DNA of 33,361 bases, from assembly GCA_016198705.1 (NCBI GenBank), contig JACQIA010000047.1, positions 1 through 33,361 of the forward strand. Reading direction: 5' to 3'. The notes beneath the pieces were generated by a model that did not search any database, was not told the DNA's origin, and saw nothing but the letters and a program-made list of their open reading frames with translations. The translations under genes and the position numbers were made by a program. The stretch is from Candidatus Aenigmatarchaeota archaeon (GTDB taxonomy: Archaea > Aenigmatarchaeota > Aenigmatarchaeia > CG10238-14 > SCSR01). Shown in pieces: positions 24,077-33,361 of the stretch (positions within the stretch are counted from its first letter, which is position 1; every line of letters starts with the position of its first letter).

Positions 24077-24398
24077 TTTATCAAGTCTAGCAAACCTCAG
24101 GCTCTTAGTAACAGCGGGCTGAACATCTCGGACGAATCCTTGATGCGTACACCCCTGTCCTATCAATCACATCGTCTATGTGGGCCTTCGTGCTACTACC
24201 GATTCTTGCGAACCAGCAGTAGCAATGACTGACTATTTTTCCGAATGGTTTCGAGCTTAGATGCTTTCAGCTCTTATCCATGTATGGCTTAGCTGCCCTG
24301 CACGCAATAACGACAGGTACACCAGAGGCCACGGGGGGATGTTCCTTTCGTACTTGTCCCTCCTTCCGGTCAGTCAATCAACACCTCTAATAGATAGC

Positions 24399-24432
<34 letters not shown>

Positions 24433-24559
24433 AGCGTCCCCTTTTAACCAGTGGACACCTGTACCCTTGGCTGCTGCTGCACAGCCAGGAGAGGGGGAGC
24501 CGACAACGACGCACCAACGCGCCGGGTCAATGTGGGCTTTCACCGGCCACGGGCCCATT

Positions 24560-24691
24560 TTGGGGGCATCGGTAAAGATGACTCTACCATGTTACCTTGG
24601 TGAGCCTATGGCCTTGAACGTCTTTTTCGATCCGTAGAACTACTACAACAGTTCAACTGGGATAGATGATGGAAAATACTCCACCGATGCT
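24560..24691 (-). other. BHB intron in 23S, peptidyl transferase centre (132 nt)
   Basis: The conserved ACCTCGGGGATA is interrupted right after U2449 (E. coli numbering) and resumes with the helix-89 region. Central helix GGGG/CCCC, bulges ATA (24693-24691) and AAA (24561-24559), inner helix GCATCGGT/ACCGATGC. Splicing gives GGGGAT-AATGGGCC, keeping A2450 and A2451. The canonical form GGGGATAACAGG is one base longer, so the exact 3' cut or nearby bases are uncertain. Confidence 0.78.
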
Positions 24692-24835
24692 ATCCCCGAG
24701 GTAACTTTTCTTATACCACCGACAGCCATTAAGGCCGTTCGATGTATCGCTAACCCATGCTTTCGCAGCTGAATCCCTTGCTTTTCGGGATACAGTCAGC
24801 CCAACTTTTGCGTTTACACTCTACTCCGGATTTCT

Positions 24836-24928
24836 TGCGGGCAACAAATGCCTATATTGTTCATTAGTTACCTCCCTACTCATCTTTTTTCATACTGGAA
24901 TGGTTTAATCATCACCAGCACTTGCTGT
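24836..24928 (-). other. BHB intron in 23S, domain V near E. coli 2300-2315 (93 nt)
   Basis: Central helix CGGG/CCCG, bulges TCA and CAA, inner helix CAGCAAG/TTTGTTG. Cutting after the second base of each bulge joins CCGGGTC to AGAAATCCGG, restoring the archaeal hairpin GGGTCAGAAACCC almost exactly. This junction is strong support for the BHB reading of the whole locus. Confidence 0.88.
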
Positions 24929-25132
24929 GACCCGGATGAGTTGAGCTTTGGGATTCCTTGATATCTTCTCAAGGAAGTACCACCCCAGCCGAACTGCCCA
25001 TCTGACGTTGTCCTATTGCTAGTAAGCAACACAGTTTTGAAAGGGTAGTGTTACACTTTCCTCTCAGCTTTCGGCCGAAGCCTAAGCCTTAGCGAGTACT
25101 ACCTACTCTATGCAACCAAAACCGTATCGCAG

Positions 25133-25163
<31 letters not shown>

Positions 25164-25167
25164 ACGT

Positions 25168-25204
25168 ATTGGGTTATCGAGATAGATAATTCTACATCAA
25201 TAAT
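25168..25204 (-). other. BHB intron in 23S near E. coli 2054 (37 nt)
   Basis: Central helix TGGG/CCCA, bulges AAA and ATA, inner helix beginning TTATTGA/TCGATAA with a longer imperfect stem beyond. Splicing gives AGTGGGAA-ACGTAGACCCC, the same length as CAGCAAGACGGAAAGACC up to that point. In that alignment 2057 is C and its partner 2611 is G, a compensated pair, and 2058 is G as in other archaea. Confidence 0.75.
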
Positions 25205-26675
25205 TTCCCACTAGAGGTCTCTGGCCTATTCACCAGAAAAGCAATTTCGCTGGGTACCAACCCAAGACAGCGGGCAAGTCGTTAAGCCATTCAGACAGGC
25301 CGTTAATTAAACGGCAAGGGATTACGCTACTTTACGACAGTCAGAGTTACTGCCGCCGTTTACTGGGGCTTCTTCCTGTTGAAACAGGGCTTGACACACC
25401 AGTACTGGGCAGGCATAAGAAACTGTACTCAAGCTTTCGCTTTAGCAGTCTCCATCGTTTTTGTTAAACAGTCGCTTGCCCCTTGTAACTGTGGCCTGCT
25501 ACTAGCAAGTAACAGGCATGGCTTCTAGCGAACATACACCACTAATTTGCCGATTTCCTTAGATTGGGTTCTCCCACTCCACCATTGCCTTCTCAGCAAC
25601 TCCACCTGTGGCGGTTCTCGGTATGGACATGAAGGATCCTTGCAAATTCCCTTTTCACGGGCTCTCGGAATCAGCCGAACTCTGCATACGCAGAGCTGTT
25701 CCTGCATTCACCTGCTTCTCCTCATTACAAGACTCCGCAGGCTTCAGCAGTTAACTTGCGTCAGCTCATCCAAAAGCGTCAGGAATTTGCCTTGTGTTGC
25801 CACACGTACCTTCATGGCACCGGAATATTAACCGGTTTCCCATCAAGTACTCCAGTTGAGGGTACCTTTAGAGATCAGCTAACTGCCAGCTGATGAACAT
25901 TGCTGGCAAACCCTTGGAGTTTAGGCGACTGGGAATTTCACCCAGCTCTGTTGCTACTTTTGGCAGGATCTTCAATTCCACACGGTCCACTTCTGCTTAC
26001 GCAGAAGCTTCTATCCATGCAGAACGCCTCCCTACCCCTGCTTTCGCAGTCTAGGGTATCGGTATTTAGCTTAGTCTCTTCCATCTTCAGGGCCAGAATT
26101 CTCGGTAGCTAAGCTGTTACGCATTTCTTAGCTGATGGCTGCTTCTGAGCCTACAGCGCTACTGTCTGAGAATTCCAACTCCCTTCTTCGTTTAGCTAAA
26201 ATTTAGAGACCTTAACCTTAGGTTGGGTTGTTCCCCTTGTGGATGCCGAGCTTACCCCAGCACCCTCACTCCCGCCTTCTACGCTTGTACCTGGTTCGGA
26301 GTTTGACAGGACAGCTGAACCTTTCGGTCCTTGACAATCCAATCAGTAACTCTACCCAAATACATAGCTCTGGCGAGGCTGCACTAACATGCATTTCGGG
26401 AGGAATCAGCTATCCGGCGTCTCGTTAGGCTTTTCACCACTAATCCTAACTCACCCGAGAGGATGTCAGCCCATCACCGGTAGCAGGCTTCCATCTCTCT
26501 TTCGAGAGACTTCGCCTTGGTCAGGATTAGATCGACGCCCTTCGGATCTTGCCCTAGTGATTTCCCGCCCTTTCAGACGGTGTCCCATTCTCGCGATACG
26601 GACAATTGCTTTCGCTTTGGTTTCATGGCTTAAACCACTTAACCTCACCACTAAGACAAACTCCCTGCCCCGTGT

Positions 26676-26724
26676 ATTTCGTTAGAGGAAATGAAGAAAC
26701 AACAATACTTACACTTCATCTAAT
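26676..26724 (-). other. BHB intron in 23S, domain II near E. coli 675 (49 nt)
   Basis: Central helix TTCG/CGAA, bulges AAA and ATA, inner helices TTAG/CTAA and ATGAAG/CTTCAT. Splicing joins CCGTTTCGAA to ACACGGGGC, restoring the conserved hairpin CCGTTTTGAAACACGG just before CAGGGAGT. Confidence 0.86.
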
Positions 26725-27356
26725 TTCGAAACGGACGCTATGACCCTGTAAGCTGCTTTTAGTTGCCTTCAAGCAGCACCTTCCGAGCCATAGCTGACTA
26801 ACTCCATCTTGGTTTCAGGCTCTTTTTACCCGGCTTTCGCCGTACTTTTCAGCTTTCTATCACTATACTAGTGCGCTATCGGACTCTACACATATTTAGA
26901 GTTGCCAGTTAATGCCTGGCAGATTCCTGCTCCATATCCAAGGAACAGTATTCAGGATACTTGGAATCCTCTTTCCACCCTTCCTTTACGGGGCTATCAC
27001 CCTCTTAGGCAGAGCTTTCCAGCTCATTCGAGTCGGCTGGTTAAGAAGTACCCAAGTCCTACTACACCACATCCATCCATAATTTCTTATGGCGTTCGGT
27101 TTGCTCTGTTTCCCTTTTACTCGCCGTTACTAAGGAAATCTCTATTGGTTTCTTTTCCTGCGGCTACTAAGATGCTTCACTTCTCCGCGTTCCTTTTCCT
27201 TTCGGAATTGGCCGAAGCCAACGAATCGCATTCAGATATCCCAGGGTCAAAACCTCCTTGCGGTTAACCTGGGCTTATCGCAGCTTGGCACGTCCTTCGT
27301 CAGTGTATAGAGCCGAGCCATCCACCAAGTGGATACTGTTGACTAGACCTTTTGAC

Positions 27357-31731: not shown

Positions 31732-32574
31732 TCATGATGATGAGTAAATAATTTGTCTACCTGCGCGGACTCTCTTAATCATGCCACTATCTGCTAAGCC
31801 TTTCAATTTTCTCTGAATTCTATAATGAGGAGATTTCAAAAGCTGTATAAGTTTAAACATTGAACAAGGCTCTTTTTTAAGAGCACTTAAAATTTCTTCC
31901 TCCGAAGGTATCTTTTCACTTTTGTATGTCTTTATGATTATGTCTAATTTTTGAGTCTTTTCCATATCAACAAATCCGATTAGTGATTTGAACTTTTCCA
32001 AATCTTTAACATAAAAATAAAAATCATCCTTTTTCATATCATGCTTGACTTTAGGTTTTGTGCACTTAATTCCCAATTCTGATAGAATCTTGTGTACAAC
32101 TCTAACAACTTTCAATCCTTTATCATCCTTAACCTGTTTGAATTCTATTTTACCTTTTAGATCTACCGAACCTTCTGCATCAAACAGACCTTTAACAAAT
32201 TCAATTTTTTCAGACCTTGTTTTATGCATTATTTTTTTATAGAATTCGCTAAACTGTGTAGCTGTTTCTTTCGAAGAAATCCTAATTCTAAGTTTTTCAA
32301 ATGTTGCATTCCAAGGACTTGAATTTGGTCTTAATTTAATTTGTACTTCTGGTATATCCAAGATTTTACTCCATTTTTCTTTATCCGCTGTTAACGAATA
32401 CACATCTACCATTATTCTATCAACTGGAAATTTTAATTCCTGCTTTATAGATTTGGCTACCTCTTTTAAGATAAATTTAGACGAATTGTAAACTTCCACA
32501 TGTCTATCATCTAAATAACCGTCTCCTATAGTAATTCCTACTAACCATGCTGGAATTGTTGCGACTACAGACAT
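31732..32574 (-). CDS. Free-standing LAGLIDADG homing endonuclease with C-terminal winged helix
   Basis: Two LAGLIDADG motifs occur: WLVGITIGDGYL (10-21) and FVKGLFDAEGSV (126-137), each with the catalytic acidic residue, so the protein is a one-chain, two-domain nuclease. Residues about 212-280 (EEEILSALKKEPCSMFKLIQ and SPHYRIQRKLKGLADSGMI) are a winged-helix DNA-binding tail. It is not inside an intron: it starts about 120 bp after the 16S 3' end with its own TATA box. LAGLIDADG enzymes spread archaeal rRNA introns, so a link to the seven introns here is likely but unproven. Confidence 0.88.
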   Translation of the reverse strand: MSVVATIPAWLVGITIGDGYLDDRHVEVYNSSKFILKEVAKSIKQELKFPVDRIMVDVYSLTADKEKWSKILDIPEVQIKLRPNSSPWNATFEKLRIRISSKETATQFSEFYKKIMHKTRSEKIEFVKGLFDAEGSVDLKGKIEFKQVKDDKGLKVVRVVHKILSELGIKCTKPKVKHDMKKDDFYFYVKDLEKFKSLIGFVDMEKTQKLDIIIKTYKSEKIPSEEEILSALKKEPCSMFKLIQLLKSPHYRIQRKLKGLADSGMIKRVRAGRQIIYSSS

Positions 32575-32605: not shown

Positions 32606-32734
32606 TTAACTAGAGTAAACTTCCGATGCTTTCAGAAATTGTTGTAGGCAAGGTTGATATTTGATGCCTTTGAGGTAGGAACCTCGCACAAAATTAAGGA
32701 GGTGATCCAGCCGCACGTTCCCGTACGGCTACCT

Positions 32735-32767
32735 AAACCAAGAGACTAGCAATAAACTAAATCTCTT
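32735..32767 (-). other. BHB intron in 16S between A1502 and A1503 (33 nt)
   Basis: Central helix GCCA/TGGT (one G-U), bulges CAA and TTA, inner helix AGAGA/TCTCT. Splicing joins GTCGCCACA to AGGTAGCCGTA, matching the conserved GTCGTAACAAGGTAGCCGTA in length and in all but two bases. Confidence 0.85.
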
Positions 32768-32777
32768 TGTGGCGACT

Positions 32778-32893
32778 TTAGGCTCCCGGAAGCTCATTTC
32801 TAAGCAATCAATTCACCTCCGACTCATCATTAAATCAGAGTCAAGCCATTTTATCATCTTTGCTTTAACTTTTCGTTTCGAACTTCCAGAGAT
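32778..32893 (-). other. BHB intron in 16S between A1492 and A1493 (116 nt)
   Basis: Central helix GGGC/GCCT (one G-U), bulges TAA and AAA, inner helix TCTC-(T)-GGAAG/CTTCCGGGA. Splicing joins GAGGGGCTA to AGTCG, giving the archaeal GGGGCTAAGTCG. No ORF of note is inside. Confidence 0.87.
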
Positions 32894-32957
32894 TAGCCCC
32901 TCTTGCGGAAGATCAACTCGACTATTGCTAGCCTCGATGAACTTCCACTCGATTGGC

Positions 32958-32994
<37 letters not shown>

Positions 32995-33003
32995 GGCGAA
33001 CGA

Positions 33004-33035
33004 TTTCACATAACTATAGATTACTCTACAGCATT
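33004..33035 (-). other. BHB intron in 16S helix 43 (32 nt)
   Basis: Outer helix GGCGAA/TTCGCC, central helix TCAC/GTGA, bulges TAA and AAT, inner helix with CTGTAG/CTATAG. Splicing yields TGTCACTATCG, identical to the archaeal helix 43 consensus, followed by GAATACGTCCC. Confidence 0.88.
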
Positions 33036-33361
33036 TAGTGACATTCGCCTACTAGGGATTCCGGCTTCATGAGGATGAGTTACAACCCTCAATCGGAACT
33101 GGGCGTGCTTTTAGGGGATTTGCTTCTCCTTTCGGAGTTGCATCCCATTGTGGCACGCATTGTGCAGCGCGTGTGGCCCAGGAAATTCAGGGCATACTGA
33201 CCTACCTTCGCCCACACCTTCCTCTGGTTTATCACCAGCGGTCTCGCATGAGTGCTTGCCTTCCGAAGAAAGCAGTAGCAACATGAAATGTGGGTCTCGC
33301 TCGTTAACCGACTTAACGGCACGCCTCACGGTACGAGCTGACGATGGCCATGCACCACTTC

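Follow-up and report, generated by a model that had tools for sequence, protein, structure and literature searches.

Why should the gene for a small-subunit rRNA be interrupted just where the ribosome is most constrained, and what would keep such an interruption in place? The question is raised by a 33,361-nucleotide stretch of DNA (the window) from a tiny, uncultured archaeon of the Aenigmatarchaeota (DPANN), the minus strand of which carries the 3' third of a 16S rRNA gene with an insert between A1492 and A1493. Numbering was anchored on E. coli rrsH, with GTCACACCA as 1405–1413, AAG as 1492–1494 and TCACCTCC as 1532–1539, and the 16S sequences of relatives were compared by motif anchors. 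The gene is truncated by the contig end at 33361, its 5' part lying on a separate contig (G000:C47), and the whole assembly contains a single 16S 3' end. The features discussed below are collected in Table 1. Two neighbours of the gene may be mentioned here. A LAGLIDADG_3 homing-endonuclease ORF (window 31732–32574, minus strand) begins about 120 nt past the 16S end and is not intronic. The 23S gene (window 24083–27350, minus strand), at a distance of ~5.3 kb from the 16S gene, measures 3268 nt against 2987 model positions and holds inserts, for instance one of ~50 nt near 26690, which may be further BHB introns.

Table 1. Coordinates of the 16S features in the window, ordered along the minus strand; 16S positions follow E. 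coli numbering.
Feature	Position	Strand	Basis or detail
16S rRNA gene, 3' third	32698..33361	minus	cmscan RF01959, 355.6 bits; 3' end ..GGATCACCTCC read directly
Intron 3, 32 nt, in h43	33004..33035	minus	BHB central UCAC/GUGA, bulges UA^A, AA^U
Target 1, GUCAAGCCA = 16S 1405-1413; N+5 = A1408	32954..32962	minus	
Intron 1 BHB, 5' splice half: GGGC + bulge UA^A	32893..32899	minus	direct reading, pairing
Intron 1, 116 nt, splits A1492 from A1493	32778..32893	minus	BHB + splice product; same site in L011, L022, L031, L149
Putative box C/D sRNA, terminal stem AAGCAA/UUGCUU	32802..32865	minus	weak cmscan hits; model R1 80.8 bits; alignments A1/A2
C box AUGAUAA (degenerate RUGAUGA)	32851..32857	minus	
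D' guide UGGCUUGAC, antisense to 16S 1405-1413	32840..32848	minus	9/9 Watson-Crick with own 16S
D' box CUGA	32835..32838	minus	
C' box AUGAUGA	32824..32830	minus	k-loop with D', stem GACUC/GAGUC
D guide GGAGGUGA, antisense to anti-Shine-Dalgarno 1532-1539	32813..32820	minus	8/8 Watson-Crick
D box UUGA (degenerate CUGA)	32808..32811	minus	
Intron 1 BHB, 3' splice half: GCCU + bulge AA^A	32777..32783	minus	direct reading, pairing
Intron 2, 33 nt, between A1502 and A1503	32735..32767	minus	BHB central GCCA/UGGU, bulges CA^A, UU^A
Target 2, anti-SD UCACCUCC = 16S 1532-1539; N+5 = C1535	32698..32705	minus	

A sequence-only reading of this DNA had placed a 116-nt BHB intron between the two adenines, with a 4-bp central helix and two 3-nt bulges. 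Its description is borne out in each of these points: E. coli numbering and the relatives give an exact insert at 32893–32778, the central helix pairs GGGC (32899–32896) with GCCU (32783–32780), and the bulges are UAA (32895–32893) and AAA (32779–32777), with an inner helix UCUC-U-GGAAG/CUUCC-GGGA. Cutting in silico at UA^A and AA^A joins GGGGCTA to AGTCG, and removal of the insert yields GGGGCTAAGTCG, matching intronless relatives. An expansion of a natural variable loop, which would have refuted the sequence-only reading, is ruled out, since the site lies in h44 and is contiguous in most relatives. The alignment to the Rfam archaeal SSU model that had been proposed as a check (SSU_rRNA_archaea, window 33361..32864 on the minus strand) breaks at GGGGCUAA. 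The minimum-energy fold includes the BHB stem; with an overall z-score of only −0.99, folding energy was set aside as uninformative evidence for it.

Chance occurrence of the BHB is excluded by sequence comparison across the relatives. The 3' ends of 73 16S genes were read in the class (of these entries, L159 is a false start and L142 ambiguous); A1492 and A1493 adjoin in about 63 and are separated by an intron in five, all with the same BHB and with lengths of 116, 109 (L011), 108 (L022), 32 (L031) and 50 nt (L149). L022 is CP066684, a single-contig genome, and the record JAUWXZ010000011 also has the same-site intron. In three further entries (L157, L158 and L160), an intron lies immediately 3' of G1494. 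By these comparisons intron 1 is an archaeal BHB intron, and its splicing in vivo is inferred, there being no RNA data.

Intron 1 is accompanied by two neighbouring BHB introns, which the sequence-only reading had overlooked, as it had the guide within intron 1 described below. On its 3' side the strand reads AAGTCGCCACA, the 33 nt of intron 2 and AGGTAGCC; with intron 2 removed the mature strand becomes ..AAGTCGCCACAAGGTAGCC, the same product as in L006 and L008. The claim that the standard cut restores the sequence was therefore right at the cut site and fell short for the mature strand, which needs this second splice. The splice product of intron 3 is identical to intronless L010, and removal of all three introns gives an exact match to intronless relatives, L010 for h43 and L006 and L008 for GGGCTAAGTCGCCACAAGGTAGCC. 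The genome holds one gene each for the splicing endonuclease (PF01974, 91 bits), the RtcB ligase (507 bits) and fibrillarin. From these genes and the single 16S 3' end it follows, as had been claimed, that every ribosome would depend on the splice, essentiality itself being inferred. Two separate observations concern the same genome. The RtcB gene (L174, minus strand ~1500–1600; G000:C18:1186-2529) seems to be interrupted by a BHB-like insert of 30 nt in which a TAG lies in frame (boundaries GGTCAT^ATCCCTTTCAGGTTTCTGTAGGGAGACAAA^TCCGGGTAC), in which case the ligase would itself require splicing. At mature 1497–1502 (window 32773–32768), the gene has GTCGCCACAAGG, as do L006, L008, L009 and L010, so that 1498 and 1499 are both C, and other relatives have CAACAAGG or TCACAAGG; U1498 and A1499 are nearly universal in 16S.

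Intron 1 appears, from its motifs and complementarity, to carry a complete box C/D guide aimed at the decoding site of its host, with methylation inferred. Boxes C, D', C' and D are present in order, the C and D boxes being degenerate, and the k-loop stem is paired in 12 of 12 aligned elements, with one compensatory pair as its only covariation. The box and N+5 assignments were made from the general rule, without measurement; the N+5 position of the D' guide, A1408, faces A1492/A1493 in the decoding site. Within the covered parts of the organism's own 16S and its 23S, no second perfect site was found for the D' guide and no second site for the D guide. A permissive Rfam scan returned weak matches to sR18, sR2, sR5, sR3 and snoPyro_CD over ~32861–32805; none of the curated box C/D families scored above its cut-off, the best archaeal sR matches lying below the gathering score. 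A match to a curated family is not defining for box C/D sRNAs, whose guides vary by lineage. Two other readings of the element were discarded. An H/ACA reading of the k-loop was abandoned after the C and D boxes and the antisense guides had been found. A reading of GGAGGTGA as a Shine-Dalgarno site was rejected on two grounds: the short introns have no ORF downstream of it, and its changes go with those of the anti-SD, in the manner of a D guide.

The guides can be followed through the 12 aligned 16S-borne elements. Nearly all genomes show pairing with their own 16S, over 8–9 of nine positions for the D' guide and all eight for the D guide. In L010, 1410 is changed from G to A in the target and the guide from C to U; in L017, a C at 1410 is matched by a G in the guide. 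The anti-SD of L017 is UCACUACA and its guide UGUAGUGA, with three changed positions matched. Both guides, as judged from the aligned sequences, track target changes in relatives, with five compensatory changes, and the register of the guides to D and D' (N+5) is retained even where box letters are altered. The anti-Shine-Dalgarno itself is changed or lost in L017, L004, L013, L014 and L125 (UCACUAC, UCACUCAG, CCTCAAT, CCTTAAA).

The guide is not confined to 16S introns. A covariance model, R1, was built from the 16S-borne copies and searched in relatives; the scores of these copies, its training set, are not independent, whereas the tRNA-borne matches are. No genome of the family has more than one strong R1 match, and a relaxed cut-off gave mostly noise, the true additions being the tRNA-Ser copies in G017 and G035. 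The guide is found in a 16S intron in 13 genomes and in an intron of tRNA-Ser(UGA) in about 17 others. There are four guide-bearing 16S sites (1492/1493, ~1499/1500, ~1513/1514 and ~1520/1521), all between both targets; at the first of these, two of the five introns (32 and 50 nt) lack the guide. In genomes without a guide-bearing intron at the 16S 3' end, the R1 match lies in the tRNA-Ser(UGA) intron, the tRNA being identified by ARAGORN for most; for L044, L067, L056 and L063 the anticodon was read by eye from the shared sequence pattern. Such tRNA-borne copies occur in families f1, f2, f3, f4 and f6, and the D' guide alone in f14, f16, f17 and f26. In all 11 genomes with a 16S-borne guide in which tRNA-Ser(UGA) was found, the tRNA intron is either absent (G008, G010, G013) or short and guide-free (13 nt in G000, 10 nt in G002; also G003, G006, G011, G012, G014 and G026); the tRNA was not found in G005 and G056.

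On the 16S tree at least nine changes of location are needed, three of them for the 1492 state, where they are enforced by well-supported branches, and genus g12 by itself has three guide sites. When named genomes were scanned for the guide motif as a pattern, 18 records matched, 16 of which are titled Aenigmatarchaeota or Aenigmarchaeota. The tRNA-Ser intron was probably the earlier home of the guide, because most families have it there, with later entry into 16S introns in family f1, G026 and G056, perhaps by reverse splicing or by recombination between introns. Its moves, with tRNA-Ser on one side and four or more 16S sites on the other, offer a natural series on the mobility and indispensability of archaeal introns.

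Several other introns in these archaea contain guide-like stretches. A second family of 16S introns, located near 1500, has GATGGGCRRTTTGA, which is antisense to ACYGCCC (1398–1404) and for which N+5 is C1402, the RsmI site of E. coli; members occur in L120, L015, L122, L123, L138, L140, L145-L150, L158, L161 and L163, and L120 and L158 additionally have a GGCTTGAC guide. Introns after TAACA (L029, L118, L121, L141, L151, L154 and L156) hold an anti-SD guide resembling GGAGGTGAxxTGAG and also a GGC(A/G)G guide that tracks target changes between CTGCC and CCGCC. The h43 introns of L008, L009, L016 and L019 resemble more C/D guides, with ATGCACTACTCTGA near-antisense to h34 GTGGTGCAT. Stretches like CTTTGATAAA.GATGA are present in tRNA introns of L071, L074 and L103 (tRNA-Gln, tRNA-Met and tRNA-Tyr by ARAGORN), which suggests more intron-borne C/D guides.

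We hypothesize that intron 1 is the carrier of a conserved box C/D guide directed to the decoding helix and the anti-Shine-Dalgarno of the same rRNA, and place the probability of this reading at roughly 0.8. The tRNA splicing endonuclease would excise intron 1 from the pre-16S rRNA and RtcB would seal the exons, and the guide would probably be set free in an sRNP with L7Ae, Nop5 and fibrillarin, in either circular or linear form, circularisation being an inference. The sRNP is predicted to pair with the decoding helix on its 5' strand (1405–1413) and with the anti-Shine-Dalgarno (1532–1539), the most likely outcome being 2'-O-methylation at A1408 and C1535, separation of the two elements during assembly, or both. 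The guide would thus be the conserved part and the intron its carrier, with A1492/A1493 as one of several places, and the guide is probably the reason why intron 1 persists. Essentiality of the guide is not implied, because removal of the C/D-bearing tRNA-Trp intron in Haloferax is reported to have left viability unaffected under standard conditions (PMC7714728).

Could intron 1 instead be a plain BHB intron, with a C/D-like stretch that arose by chance or merely travels with it as a relic? Cargo-free BHB introns are common in the class, and the 32- and 50-nt introns at the same site are examples; even so, this is improbable in view of the five compensatory guide-target changes and of a guide present in one copy per genome that exchanges its place with the tRNA-Ser(UGA) intron. 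Still less can be said for an assembly error or a non-functional rRNA copy. The division of the 16S gene over two contigs could point that way, but there is a single 3' copy, the stem of h45 is compensated (TACG/CGTG), and independent genomes, including CP066684 and JAUWXZ010000011, have the same-site intron. A degenerate group I intron, for instance of the archaeal SSU/1498 IB4 class, deserves next to no credence, although DPANN rRNA is known to harbour group I introns, some of them close to A1492/A1493 (PMC6125680): the 116-nt insert is too short, has a full BHB at its boundaries and gives no match to Rfam Intron_gpI even at E 10, which together refute a group I intron here.

A different role for the same guide is harder to set aside. 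The main task of the guide might be to chaperone folding or to act as a checkpoint, its cis pairing silencing the pre-30S until splicing, with methylation secondary. In the unspliced precursor, the guide sRNP would pair in cis with h44 1405–1413 and the anti-SD and mask both, so that the intron would serve as a maturation checkpoint; if true, splicing would at once join A1492 to A1493 and free the guide for action in trans. Such a checkpoint would explain why the four guide-bearing 16S sites all fall between the two targets, one of which is the decoding helix and the other the 3' end that binds mRNA, and C/D sRNAs have been proposed, in reviewed work, to chaperone distant rRNA strands (PMC7994747). 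We nevertheless consider the checkpoint tentative and a predominantly chaperoning guide rather unlikely, since in many relatives the guide sits in the tRNA-Ser intron, so that its basic function does without cis action, and since the N+5 register is kept despite changes in box letters, as methylation would predict.

The carriage of a guide for both rRNA elements, which remains our preferred reading, can be set beside several known systems. A literature search that lacked most subscription journals found no published account of a C/D guide within an rRNA intron. The position 1492/1493 is not among the 16S intron sites published for Thermoproteales and neighbours, which range from 374 to 1391 (PMC4496867). 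Intron 1 resembles the Thermoproteales 16S introns in its BHB junctions, its conserved rRNA site and the consensus obtained by in-silico removal; their content is a homing endonuclease or a plain hairpin, whereas that of intron 1 is a guide RNA (PMC4496867). They also interrupt 'universal' primer sites (PMC4496867), and intron 1 likewise disrupts the standard 1492R site, so that PCR surveys should miss such archaea. With the SSU/1498 group I introns of archaeal rRNA, intron 1 shares insertion in the h44–h45 stretch, but those are longer ribozymes and intron 1 is without such structure (PMC6125680). Archaeal dual-guide box C/D sRNAs have the same C/D'/C'/D boxes, D'–C' k-loop, N+5 register and two rRNA targets; unlike them, the guide of intron 1 is always intronic in the genomes examined, its host gene varies, and its C and D boxes are degenerate. 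The closest parallel is the pre-tRNA-Trp intron of Haloferax and Pyrococcus (sR50), a C/D guide in a BHB intron with a target in its own host (cited in PMC7994747 and PMC7714728). In contrast to sR50, the guide of intron 1 has 16S rRNA as host and target, at the decoding helix and the anti-SD, and is also found in tRNA-Ser(UGA) introns of relatives. On the preferred reading, an rRNA intron can hold a guide directed at the same rRNA that it interrupts, which offers a reason for its persistence.
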